Shown here: piece by piece, positions 27,356 through 32,919 of the stretch
Layout of the letters: each line of letters opens with the position of its first letter
Position numbering within the stretch: the first letter of the stretch is position 1
DNA from: Actinernus sp. WN-2022
Lineage: Eukaryota; Cnidaria; Anthozoa; Actiniaria; Actinernidae
DNA length: 64,000 nucleotides
Assembly: GCA_030867875.1 (NCBI GenBank)
Contig: JAOWCC010000286.1
Span: 1,798,001 to 1,862,000, forward strand
Direction: 5' to 3'
Notes under the pieces: model-generated
Database searches by the model: none
Seen by the model: only the letters and a program-made list of their open reading frames with translations
Told to the model about the DNA's origin: nothing
Made by a program: the position numbers and the translations under genes

Positions 27356-27360
27356 TAGCT

Positions 27361-27691
27361 GTATGGTGGCCCATTGACGCCATAGTAGTTTTTATTAAAT
27401 TATCATGCTTTTTTATTTTAAACAATTTTTAATTTTTTTTTTTTTTTAAATAATTCTTTATTATTATATTTTAAACAATTATTATTTATTTATTTTTGTT
27501 TTAAAATTTTTTATTTTTTTTATTTTATATTATATTTTAGTTTTCTGTTTTTATTTTTTAAATTTTTAATAAAAAAATTAAAAAAACATACGCCATGGCC
27601 CATTGACGCCATAGCATATTTTTTTTAAATAGAAAAACATGCTCCATGGCCCATTGACGCCATAGCAATTTTCGTGGCCCAGAGACGCCAT
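27361..27691. repeat. Left inverted terminal repeat of the kinase transposon
   Basis: The repeat begins GTATGGTGGCCCATTGACGC. It holds an A/T-only middle of about 190 bp and then two more copies of GGCCCATTGACGCCATAG and one variant GGCCCAGAGACGCCAT. The kinase ATG lies 166 bp inside it, so the repeat may also act as its promoter region. Confidence 0.85.
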
Positions 27692-27856
27692 GTTAAGAAG
27701 TTCATTTAGATCATGTGGAAACACCGCATTGCGCATGCTCAGACTCTTCAAAGCATCACAACTCATCACACGTGCGAAGCGCCGAATATTACAATCGAAA
27801 GATTTTGAGCCGCAAATTTACATAAAATTTAACCGTTTTAAAGTTGTTTTTTTGTG

Positions 27857-29128
27857 ATGTCGAAGCGAAGACCTGTTTGGGATAACTATAAAGAGAAGGT
27901 GGCGAAGAAGAGAATGCGGAAAGGCGAAGAGAAAGGAGCAGCTGGTCCAAAAGATGGGCTGACTGTTCAGCGTTTGTCGGCGAACGTGGAGGGCAAATGC
28001 CAAAAGTATTCGCGCATCGGGCCTTTGACGTTAGTTCCTTGTGAGAAAGAACTGACGCTAGAAAATATTAAAGCTGCGTGTAAGGCCCACTTCAACACAG
28101 AATTGGAATGCGATGTGCTTGCGGGTGAACGTGGTCCTTCCTTTACTGAGTCAGGACAAATCCAGAACTGGAAAGTTTTACACGTGCGCTTCGTGGAAAG
28201 TCTCGAACACCCCACGAACGCAAGCAAACAGCCTAGAAACCCAAGTACGTATACAAGACATCAAAGTGAACCAGTAGCCGGAAGTCCACCAAAAAGCTCT
28301 TCCCAAAATCCACCCTCAAGGCAAACAGCATCTGTCAGACCATCACCATCTGTAATGCGTTCAGTGTCACTGAGTCAGATGCTGAAATTGGGCAAAGTCA
28401 TTCTCCCAGATATTGATGTGGTAACTCTTCGGCTTGAAGAGTTTTGCATCTCAAGAATGGAGTGGTTGGAACCGTTCGAGGTGACAATCTCAATGGAAAG
28501 AAAACCATTTGCCAATGGGGCATTCCGTGAAGCGTTTTTGGCAAAATCAATCGCAGGTCTGCCAAAAGGAAAATTTGTGATAAAAAAATATTTGGAGGGA
28601 GAAAAACAAGGCATTGAGGCATTGTTTGAATCAATTGAACTTCACACCCGAAAGTCAGTTCAACTGAATGCCCTAGCTCGTAATTTTGCACAAAGCATGG
28701 CTTCTGAAGTCCAAGCTACAGAATTTGGAGATACATTCAATTATGGTAAGATCTACTATTCATCTCTAAATGGGGAACCTGTTACCTTAGAGAATCACCT
28801 CGATGGCATTTTTGAGAAGTTTGTGAACAACACCGGAGAATTGTGTGTGCCACCTGCAGATGCCAATGCGCTAAGCCTGAAAGCGGAGGCATTTGTACAT
28901 TATACGCATCAGAAATCAAACCAACAACTTATGGTCACTGACATTCAAGGGGTAAATTATTCCCTGTGTGACCCAGAAATTGCAACGGCTGAGCTGAAAG
29001 ACCCCGAAGACCGAGCAATTCGTTTCTGCACTGGTAATTTGTCAGATAAAGCAATTAAAACCTTTTTGGCATGTCATAAATGCAACAGATACTGTGAGAT
29101 GCTGAAACTACTGCCAAACCAAGAGTAA
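27857..29128 (+). CDS. Alpha-kinase family protein, intact
   Basis: An uninterrupted 423-codon frame starts at an ATG and ends TAA at 29128. Residues 1-120 are unfamiliar, with a basic start (AKKRMRKGEEK). Residues 122-170 form a Ser/Pro/Gln-rich linker. From about 205 to the end it matches the alpha-kinase (MHCK/EF2K/TRPM7-type) fold: a nucleotide-loop region KPFANGAFREAF near 217, the lysine strand KFVIKKY near 240, EAFVHYTHQKSNQQLMVTDIQG near 344-365 with the catalytic Asp, FCTGNLS, and the zinc-binding CHKCNRYC near 406-413. These Ser/Thr kinases are unrelated in sequence to ordinary protein kinases. All expected motifs are present and no damage is seen. It lies inside the transposon's inverted repeats, convergent with the transposase, and looks like cargo. 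The substrate is unknown. Confidence 0.9.
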   Translation: MSKRRPVWDNYKEKVAKKRMRKGEEKGAAGPKDGLTVQRLSANVEGKCQKYSRIGPLTLVPCEKELTLENIKAACKAHFNTELECDVLAGERGPSFTESGQIQNWKVLHVRFVESLEHPTNASKQPRNPSTYTRHQSEPVAGSPPKSSSQNPPSRQTASVRPSPSVMRSVSLSQMLKLGKVILPDIDVVTLRLEEFCISRMEWLEPFEVTISMERKPFANGAFREAFLAKSIAGLPKGKFVIKKYLEGEKQGIEALFESIELHTRKSVQLNALARNFAQSMASEVQATEFGDTFNYGKIYYSSLNGEPVTLENHLDGIFEKFVNNTGELCVPPADANALSLKAEAFVHYTHQKSNQQLMVTDIQGVNYSLCDPEIATAELKDPEDRAIRFCTGNLSDKAIKTFLACHKCNRYCEMLKLLPNQE

Positions 29129-29426
29129 ACTTTGCAATTGCCAATGTACCAACTTTAATATATATTTATATATACAGTGTACATATAAAAACTGACTCCA
29201 TGATTAGATATGTTTTGTTATTTGTTTTGTTGAGAAGAACATGAAAGAACATTGGTTTTCAAAAACCATTGACATTAAATTAATATGTACAGTATATCAA
29301 TATAATTACTCCAGGTAATTACTCCAGGTATTATTAAATAGTGTTAAGTATTCAGATGAGCTTTTTACCACCAATCAATAGTGTAGTTTAAGACCATTAT
29401 AGGTGTTGTAAATATCACTATGTATT

Positions 29427-29532
29427 GTAGGTTTCTCTAAACCTGAAAGAGAAGACAGAAACTTCTCAAAAGGCCATTGCTCAAAACATTTAGAAGTTTC
29501 TTTCAACTCTTTCAGGATAAGAAAAACCTACA
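29427..29532. repeat. Foldback repeat inside the transposon
   Basis: GTAGGTTTCTCTAAACCTGA on the left pairs with the complement of TCAGGATAAGAAAAACCTAC on the right, with further pairing of CAGAAACTTCT. It lies 300 bp after the kinase stop and could be a small inserted MITE or a 3' structure. Confidence 0.65.
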
Positions 29533-29752
29533 CTATCTACTGATATCTTTTTGGTTGAAAGCTTGTCTGATTGCTTGTCTAATCACTTTATTACGATTTT
29601 GTGCGAGTGAGATTAATCGGTACTTTTAGTTATTGTTTACCATACTATAGCATATACACATATTTTATAAGTTCAGATTGTTTCCATTCTGAGGAAAAAT
29701 ATATAAAAAAAGTTTCATATTTTATTCTCACATGAATATAGATCAAACTGGA

Positions 29753-32344
29753 TTATGTCCAAATGTGATCTTTTAAATATAAATATGCATTGGAAGCCTG
29801 GGCTGGCTCAATGTCCTCTGTATCGGGTACATGTCTTTGGCATTCCTGTCGAAAGTCTTCATCTAAAAAGTCATCATTAGCATCCAGTACATGAGAAAAC
29901 TCAGCCACTTCTCGTAGTTGCTCCTCAGATACTGGAATACCACACTTTTCACCACCGTGTTGCTCTGGGCATGTGTATATGTGTTCTGGCACACCAGTAG
30001 GAAGCTCATTATCCTTTTGCTTTCTCACTCTGTGATTATTCCACACAGATACCCTGAACACACAGATACCCTGTATTGTGTTTCCCACAATACAGGGTTC
30101 GATTAAGTTGCGAAAATAACAATGTGGTAAAACATGGCTCTGGATTCCTATTGCGTGAATTGATGTTCATTAATTAGTTGCAAGTCTGAAATTTTTCACA
30201 TTGACTGAAAAGTGATGTGCAATTTTCACTATCTGCTCCAAAATTATGTGAAAATTTAACATTGCACACTGTTACTTTGAACTCTGGATCAATAGACATG
30301 GTGTTGATCCATGATCTCACCCTCCCCCTTTTTAGAGAAGGGGATCAATAATTCAATATATAATCTAACACTTGTATATCAGGCCTAGAAAAAATGATTT
30401 CTCTTCCTGGCAGCAAAACCAAAAAAAAAAAAAATTCCTGCATAACCAAATGTGAAACTTCCTGTTTCAGAGAGATGCGATGCTGCACATATAGTTTAAT
30501 TTATTAGATAATACAAATTTCCTGTGAAGAGATTTTGTAAAAATATCCTGGCAGCGATGCTGCCAGACATTTTCCAGCCCTGCTTGTGGTGTACTTCATG
30601 TACACAAATTATAGTGACTCGGGCCCAGGCCCAAAATGGACAAACTAGGCTCGCTTTTCAAGACAAGAGGCCATTTTGGATTTGGAGTAAAAACGTTTGG
30701 AGAATACATAGTTAAAACATTGATAATGTAGGAGTTTAAAGGCCAAAGATGTAAATAATACTGCGTACTATCTATGTTTGTTTGTTAATAATCTAGATTG
30801 AGTGTTTAAATACGTGTAAATTGTAATTTGTTTCGTTAAAATTCGTATGTATTTTGTTTTGTATAGTTTTCAACGTAGTACTTGAATAAACCGTTTCATT
30901 TACTTTGGTTGACACTTCTGTCCGTACACGGGGACACGACACTGCTGTATATATTTTTCTCACAGTAATTTAAAAAATGCTAAAATGCCATTTCTGGGTC
31001 CTCCCCCTGACAATGGAATCATTTCCATTGCTTTATCGTTAAATTTGTAAGCACATGAAGGTGTTACAGTGCTGTAGTGCACACACATATATGTGTGGGT
31101 TAAAATTGCAACATTTCATGGATAGCTGCATTAACTAGTAAACCAAAAGCATTCCTATCTGGAAAGCATACCTGTCAGTTTCGTTGCTTGGGTCATAATA
31201 CCCATCTTCAAGCAAATATTTTAATTGATCCTTGAAGTAGCCTTCCATTCTATGTGAAAGCTCTCTCCACCATCTCTCAATTTTGTTTTCAGTTGAGGGT
31301 CCGAATAGCACACAGTCATCTCCATCCTCCACATCACCATGTTGTGCTCGTAAATAACTGTGGATAGTACACATGACACCAGTTTCTGTTCCTCTATCCA
31401 CACGTATTCTTGAGGGTAACACTATAAAATACAGAAAAGTTACACATATAGTACTATTTTTGTTTATATATACAATATGACTATAATATATGATTGTGCT
31501 CATGAAGGGTGCTAAAACAATGCCTATCAAGAAAGAGTGGTTATTTTTTATCATTCTCATATTCCAGGTATTAATAATCTCAAAAATTTAAGAATCATTA
31601 GATATAGACAAATTTAATTATAATACTGTACCTCTTCTTTCAAACAAATAGTCGAAATAGAATCTACCAACAATGCTTGGATTATTGTTGGAAGTCCATA
31701 CTCTCAGGAAATTGACTCTGCTGCTGAAAGTATCCTGGGCACCATAGATGCAGAGTGGGAACATTGACTTTTGAAAGCCACACAGTTTATCATGCCCATC
31801 AAGTGACATTGTAAAATCAGCTCCCTAGATAAGAAAATCGTCACATATATTAATATAACTTTCAAAACACATATTTAGTGTAACAACATATAAAACACTT
31901 GTATGCTTACAGACTTACAGTTGATGTAAATGCTCCTTTTCTTCGTTGGCGCTTTGGTTGACCCACACCACCTCTTTCTTGTAAACCTTGAGGGTTAACA
32001 TCGGCCATCACGTCGTAAACAACGTTTCTTGGAACATTCAATGTATGTACTTCACGAATTTTCTTATGTAAAGCACGATAGCCTAGGAATCTTCCTGGCC
32101 CATTCATCTCTTTTTCCACAGCACGTGTAACATCGTCAATATTTGTGTCGTACTCGATGTATTTGATATCAAAGAGATGCAGGCGACGTGAGAGAGTTCT
32201 TACACTCCACGCATACATCGGATACTTCACTTTCAAGAAATCCACAATTTCTGTTTGACGTAAATTCTGGGCTACATACGCTTTAAGGTCGTCTTTCAAC
32301 GCCATATCGTCTTCCCATTCATCATTCCTTATACGAGTCGCCAT
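29753..32344 (-). CDS. Integrase-like DDE transposase, at least 4 exons
   Basis: Exons on the minus strand: 32344-31919, 31824-31632, 31421 to about 31144, and 30053-29753. The first three join in phase at GT-AG borders; the last acceptor is good, but its donor and perhaps a small exon are unclear. Exon 1 holds a helix-turn-helix-like start (WSVRTLSRRLHLFDI). Exon 2 has SLDGHDKLCGF with the first Asp, exon 3 RVDRGTETG with the second Asp and NKIERWW with the Glu, completing a DDE set as in integrase-core transposases. The last exon has VWNNHRVRKQ and an acidic tail. No stop or frameshift is seen within the exons, so the protein may be functional. A related fragment lies at 58802-59045. Confidence 0.8.
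30680..30945 (+). other. Possible LTR-like insertion in a transposase intron
   Basis: Sequence ending GAATAAACCGTTTCATTTAC and then GGGGACACGACAC looks like the polyadenylation and U5 part of a retrotransposon LTR, with AATAAA near 30885. No partner LTR or target duplication was found. Upstream, 30090-30680 holds nothing recognisable. Confidence 0.3.
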
Positions 32345-32378
32345 GTTGGAATATCCTGCCCGAAAGGCCTTATGGTCT

Positions 32379-32721
32379 ATGGCGTCTCTGGGCCACGAAA
32401 ATTGCTATGGCGTCAATGGGCCATGGAGCATGTTTTTTTTTATTTAAAAAAAAAAATGCTATGGCGTCAATGGGCCATGGCGTATGTTTTTTTTTATTTT
32501 TTTAATTAAAAATTTAAAAAATTAAAACAGAAAATAAAAAAAGATAATAACACTAAAATATAATATAAAATAAAATAAAATAATAATATTTAAAACAAAA
32601 AATAAATAAATAATAATTGTTTAAAATATAATAATAAAGAATTATTAAAAGAAAAATAGTTTAAAATAAAAAAGCATGATAATTTAATAAAAACTACTAT
32701 GGCGTCAATGGGCCACCATAT
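32379..32721. repeat. Right inverted terminal repeat of the kinase transposon
   Basis: This is the inverted counterpart of the left end, with the same series of CTATGGCGTCAATGGGCC motifs and A/T-only middle. The transposase ATG (32344) is only 35 bp inside. Arms have diverged mainly by indels in homopolymer runs. Confidence 0.85.
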
Positions 32722-32919
32722 AGCTGCCATGTTGGTGTACAGTTAACAATATATTCTTCGTTGCTTCTTTTGTTCTGTACACCAACATGGCCGCCATGCC
32801 CTTTGTCATTTGAATCTCTGGGGATTGAGTGCAAACCATCTATAGCATTAAATTAAACCTTATAAAATATAAAAGGTCCATAAGTTGAAGTGACTAGAAA
32901 TTATATATAATTAAAGGCT

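Follow-up and report, generated by a model that had tools for sequence, protein, structure and literature searches.

DNA transposons of the IS3EU / GingerRoot superfamily are characterised, in the part of the published description drawn on here, by TA..TA termini, usually 6-bp target site duplications, and an integrase-like DDE transposase without the HHCC motif (PMC10045372); the word kinase does not occur in the main text of that paper. An alpha-kinase is already in print as a component of IS3EU elements in fungi. In the sections of Kojima 2025 (PMC12730594) used here, all fungal TET+ IS3EU families contain a TET/JBP gene between a transposase gene and an alpha-kinase gene of opposite orientations, and the Pucciniales families have 6-bp duplications and TAYGG..CCRTA ends; these sections do not discuss the age of the kinase, selection upon it or its role. 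Among the best-ranked literature matches we noticed no paper on an alpha-kinase IS3EU element in an animal. We have analysed a 64,000-nucleotide stretch (the window; contig JAOWCC010000286.1, C995:1798001-1862000) of the 1.39-Gb genome of the sea anemone Actinernus sp. WN-2022, in which a 5359-bp element (27362-32720) encodes an alpha-kinase and a transposase. We put at roughly 85% the probability that this cnidarian element is a DNA transposon of the IS3EU type and belongs to a clade whose members have the alpha-kinase as a standing second gene, placed convergently to the transposase and passed on together with it. An earlier, sequence-only reading of the window had proposed a transposon with kinase cargo and considered such cargo undescribed, a claim overtaken by the fungal report. 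What is new here is that the kinase seems to be a long-standing, co-inherited component and not a chance capture, and that a HECT ubiquitin ligase stands in the same slot in a distant clade.

The exact ends of the element were set by terminal symmetry and are flanked on both sides by a perfect 6-bp target site duplication, TAGCTG (27356..27361 and 32721..32726). Limits of 27361 and 32721, as first proposed, were therefore nearly exact, the true ends lying one base further in on either side. The left terminal inverted repeat (27362..27691, plus strand) starts TATGGTGGCCC and the right (32379..32720, minus strand) finishes GGGCCACCATA. Aligned with a few flanking bases included (27357-27691 and 32379-32725), the repeats are about 335 bp long, in agreement with the earlier estimate, and are identical at 311 of 322 aligned bases, with a further 38 gapped. 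Each carries three copies of a 19-mer, TGGCCCATTGACGCCATAG (at 27367, 27596 and 27647 on the left, and at 32405, 32459 and 32697, minus strand, on the right), which has no further exact match anywhere in the window. The termini, TATGGTGG..CCACCATA, read TATGG..CCATA and follow the IS3EU rule TAYGG..CCRTA (TA..TA), and the repeats exceed the 30 bp expected of fungal IS3EU families. The ends, the duplication and the gene orientation all agree with the published IS3EU description, as does the integrase-like DDE transposase. The likeness to the fungal TET+ elements, as these are described in print, covers the alpha-kinase opposite the transposase and, for the Pucciniales, the duplications and ends; those elements differ by the TET/JBP gene between the two, whereas the kinase and the transposase are the only frames recognised in the window element.

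The kinase gene is a single ATG frame of 423 codons with no intron and no lesion (27857..29128, plus strand), just as first described; in 300 dinucleotide-shuffled versions of the element, ATG frames reach 172 codons at most. Residues 219-413 (28511..29095) match the Pfam Alpha_kinase domain (E = 2.5e-31; 109.7 bits against a cut-off of 21.3), and the closest fold match is the TRPM7 kinase (E = 5.8e-18). In an alignment of 48 kinases that includes the window's, K243, E312, H348, D362, D372, N394, H407 and C409 are invariant, and Q364 and C413 are present in 47; we take K243, E312, D362, Q364, D372, H348, H407, C409 and C413 to be catalytic or zinc-binding residues. A short basic stretch and a conserved domain (residues 35-113; 27959..28195, plus strand) stand N-terminal to the kinase domain, and the latter is tentatively predicted to have a ubiquitin-like beta-grasp arrangement. 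The host alpha-kinases TRPM6/7, eEF2K, MHCK and ALPK1 share the catalytic fold and residues but have different N-terminal parts. None of 37 pattern matches in viral contigs encodes a relative of the kinase.

The transposase gene lies on the opposite strand, convergent to the kinase, and comprises three exons with GT..AG borders (31919..32344, 31632..31824 and 31172..31421) and the remaining part of a fourth, through the stop codon (29753..30052). An integrase-core Pfam match (rva_4, E = 8.2e-9) places its product among the integrase-like DDE transposases; SLDGHDK in exon 2 presumably holds the first acidic residue of the triad, and RVDRGTE and STENKIE in exon 3 the second and third. The gene had been described as a multi-exon DDE transposase without visible damage in its exons, of which the first part stands and the second does not. 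At 30062..30075, approximately 125 bp that are kept in three sibling copies (L031, L032 and L033) are reduced to about 12 bp. The splice acceptor of exon 4 is gone, as are the initial ~50 nt of that exon, a part that P0125 and P0155, two sea anemone proteins, do have. With this lesion a normal transposase can apparently no longer be made from the window copy, which would need one in trans and is probably non-autonomous. Judging by the sequence, a cryptic acceptor might preserve the frame minus some 17 residues. In L031 the situation is reversed: all four transposase exons are represented by blocks, and the kinase has a 28-bp deletion.

The kinase belongs to the transposon, as the sequence-only reading had supposed, since other copies bounded by the same repeats carry it. 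A genome search with the kinase returned at least 104 matches. At 24 of the 30 best kinase loci (window included), the C-terminal exon of an opposite-strand transposase is found within a 1.5-kb flank, and longer stretches add L004 (as L033), L016 (L043), L019 (L039) and L030 (L045), so that 28 of 30 have a convergent transposase. This is the opposite of a kinase missing from other copies and matching a single host locus. No transposase was found in the DNA examined around the other two, L010/L042 and L017/L044; for L017/L044 the genome search lists a convergent one some 14 kb off (C769). Distant kinase loci (L038, 38% identity; L040, 35%) are also located beside a convergent transposase. Among the matches listed, with 150 of the 152 reported rows used on the transposase side, a transposase match lies within 20 kb of 48 of the 89 merged kinase loci and is convergent in every case, where about 0.08 would be expected by chance. 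From the transposase side, 48 of the 125 loci listed have a kinase, in proportions that depend on identity to the window's transposase: 7/7 at 80% or above, 9/13 at 60-80%, 9/18 at 54-60%, 15/24 at 50-54%, 7/47 at 45-50% and 1/16 below that.

Both ends were read in ten elements (the window's, L031, L035, L036, L037, L041, one nested in L045, L046, L047 and L050/L052), six of which carry a kinase; nine have perfect 6-bp duplications and L035 matches at five of six bases. Both ends were not found in L032, L033, L034, L038, L039, L040, L042, L043, L044, L048, L049, L051 or L053. These elements bear on the idea that the locus is a composite or nested insertion, in which the inverted repeats and kinase have nothing to do with the transposase. 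Nesting does occur in this genome, as in L045, where an element sits inside the kinase, but L031, L036, L037 and L041 share ends, gene order, orientation and 6-bp duplications with the window copy, and L035 does so with the one mismatched base of its duplication. With the same architecture recurring in these five elements, unrelated repeats are barely conceivable.

The copies fall into families that differ in age and preservation. Between the window's kinase stretch and each of five siblings there are 0-7 substitutions, and among the six copies of this family A that were read (the window's, L005, L030/L045, L031, L032 and L033) only the window's kinase is free of indels and insertions. In L032 a 183-bp in-frame insertion at codon ~358 leaves the frame open at 489 codons, and the element inside the kinase gene of the family A copy in L045 (L045:2002-4368) is 2.4 kb long, with TACGG..CCGTA ends and the duplication GTAATG. 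A second family (L022-L026, L028 and L029, with L022 read whole as L035) has inverted repeats that are 99.5% identical, a 401-codon kinase frame and stop-free transposase blocks, and its seven almost identical kinase copies indicate that it moved recently. In family B, a long transposase match is found in three copies (L006, L007 and L008) and the transposase core is deleted in six of nine loci. We considered whether these deletions might be a sign of a kinase kept without its transposase. This reading was dropped, as all six kinases are damaged: there are stops in L009, L014, L018, L020 and L021, of which L014, L020 and L021 are additionally cut or frameshifted, and the L011 kinase lacks the end bearing the zinc ligands. 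One internally deleted family B element (L036:1134-3881) has lost the end of the kinase frame along with the transposase core, and L041 is a full-length relative of the family with the duplication CTCTAG.

Kinase and transposase have diverged together. Their distance matrices correlate with r = 0.895 (permutation p = 0.0001) over ten element pairs, namely seven families from this genome, L034 and L039 being based on ~125 transposase residues, and two Exaiptasia pairs and one eukprot pair that were matched by equal contig size or gene number; the family B derivative, whose transposase is deleted, was not included. The maximum-likelihood trees of the two proteins have two forks in common, {L038, L040} and {L035, one Exaiptasia pair}, and no supported conflict, with five of the seven inner forks of the transposase tree left open. 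Between eight family representatives, the proportion of synonymous differences (pS) is 0.74-0.90 against 0.24-0.36 for nonsynonymous differences (pN) in all 28 pairs; pS is saturated, so we quote no ratio, and at the level of sequence these changes look purifying. Within families the kinases carry 49 nonsynonymous and 19 synonymous changes (stops excluded, and L018 with its own 67 nonsynonymous, 8 synonymous and 3 stop differences also excluded), close to a neutral expectation of about 2.4:1, and these changes look neutral. An argument from the ratio of nonsynonymous to synonymous rates (dN/dS) in close copies was abandoned for this reason, and the comparison of copies proposed earlier as a check shows a purifying pattern between families but near-neutral counts within them. 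This pattern is the usual one for a transposon gene, constrained in active lineages and free to decay after insertion. It follows that the intact kinase of the window, which had been taken to suggest recent activity or selection, fits the former, given siblings only 0-7 substitutions away, but is not in itself evidence of the latter.

The same data speak to a chance capture, in which a host alpha-kinase was picked up once and has been carried as a passenger without a role. Decay like that of neutral sequence within families would be expected of a passenger, as would the finding that five of the six family A kinases read have an indel or insertion. The purifying pattern between families, the retention of catalytic and zinc residues and the apparent recurrence of the pair in other sea anemones argue against it, however, and we consider it very improbable.

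The most distant transposases have no listed kinase beside them and, in part, a different partner. Thirteen transposase loci that are 32-35% identical to the window's have no kinase within 20 kb among the matches listed. One of them, L050/L052 (C1380:13321704-13329550), is a 7847-bp element with ends TACGGTGGCCC..GGGCCACCGTA and the duplication CATTTA, in which a kinase profile search (L050) finds nothing. Its second gene, convergent to the transposase, contains a HECT ubiquitin-ligase domain (E = 1.4e-15) after a zinc-ribbon part, from which it is separated in this copy by a single stop codon. Such HECT-carrying elements are thus like the window element in the type of their ends, the 6-bp duplication (in the one read whole) and the convergent second gene; they are unlike it in what that gene encodes and in a transposase only ~34% identical, which in L050 has an N-terminal zinc ribbon. 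Below 45% transposase identity, 7 of 16 loci have a convergent HECT match within 20 kb, and all seven are among the 13 distant loci (C789, C540, C1084, C1271, C635:52.8 Mb and C685:115.2 Mb besides L050/L052). They form three sequence groups, five of the seven being near-identical copies. At 45% identity or above, none of the 45 loci tested (of 109) has a convergent HECT match, and a single locus has, within 20 kb, a HECT match in a different orientation. By eye, the N-terminal domain of the kinase might be taken for a homologue of the N-terminal part of the HECT protein, but profile comparison lends this no support (probability 0.4%). We found no paper that treats IS3EU together with HECT, a wider search giving only an unrelated one. 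A third kind of second gene is perhaps present in L053 (C1744:146800-152800), where frames convergent to a ~35% identical transposase lie downstream of it and one of them may encode a zinc knuckle; the ends of this element were not found.

Two counts weigh against a standing second gene in these elements. Among the matches listed, a kinase is missing at 77 of 125 transposase loci, and 59 of the 66 merged HECT loci are not accompanied by any of the 16 transposases under 45% identity, so that the majority of HECT relatives in this genome may belong to the host or to other elements. The kinase of L051 was found on reading, being absent among the listed matches of the first search. Inverted transposase pairs are frequent in the 45-50% group, and both pairs that were read (L046 and L047) are palindromic, truncated copies. 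At L049, whose left end was not found, the transposase is almost full and lies in two frames, and no kinase was found in 9 kb. Each palindrome (L046:1307-4172 and L047:1002-4893) contains a truncated transposase (residues 2-254) twice, in inverted orientation, between perfect 6-bp duplications (CACATC and GAGATG), with no kinase found in either, and the genome list contains several more such pairs.

A kinase that stands beside the transposase of a cut-and-paste element turns a remark on fungal transposons into a testable question in animals, namely why such an element keeps a protein kinase. Probably the element expresses this kinase and gains by having a nuclear protein modified. We infer a sequence of steps in which the kinase would be made from the element itself, enter the nucleus via its basic N-terminus, bind a partner through the possibly ubiquitin-like domain and phosphorylate a nuclear protein, so favouring transposition or expression of the element. 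Our tentative choice of target is a host silencing, repair or cell-cycle factor. A slightly less likely candidate is the element's own transposase, whose activity, localisation or timing the kinase could switch. The kinase is encoded beside the transposase and co-diverges with it, as expected of partners, and the damage to the kinase in all six family B copies without a transposase core raises the odds of this target and lowers those of a host protein; mere linkage would also produce co-divergence, however, and age the joint decay. That a distant clade has a HECT ligase in this slot, and fungal relatives a TET/JBP gene in addition, speaks more for host-directed enzymes, and for this reason a host target is slightly favoured over the transposase alone. 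More generally, the HECT gene points to a common need to modify host or transposase proteins. We would lay even odds on IS3EU-like elements having a cargo slot for protein-modifying enzymes, convergent to the transposase and occupied in one clade by an alpha-kinase and in another by a HECT ligase, to which fungal elements add TET/JBP demethylation enzymes. Were this true, the elements would make up a family of selfish DNAs manipulating the nuclear signalling of their hosts, and many cnidarian genes now annotated as TRPM6, eEF2K, MHCK or ALPK1 would be transposon genes.

Database names already give grounds for caution. Named matches to the kinase come from Dendronephthya, Acropora, Exaiptasia, Oculina, Actinostola and Saccoglossus, under names that include ALPK1-like, MHCK-like, TRPM6 and eEF2K. 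Among entries on contigs >5 kb (59 kinase and 74 transposase entries, among 120 listed each), two Exaiptasia kinases and transposases sit on contigs of equal size (214097 and 143151) and a third pair on equal contigs of 42827, while no unequal pair of contigs comes within 50 bases of each other in size; one eukprot pair has consecutive gene numbers. From these coincidences, some entries with host-kinase names are apparently genes of transposons, including sea anemone proteins named TRPM6 and eEF2K, and the same may hold more generally. Some alpha-kinase genes and names in cnidarian databases should be read with this in mind.

Just outside the window element, its right flank contains a 23-nt inverted repeat (32720-32742 and 32775-32797), which suggests that the element may have inserted in or beside a small older repeat.

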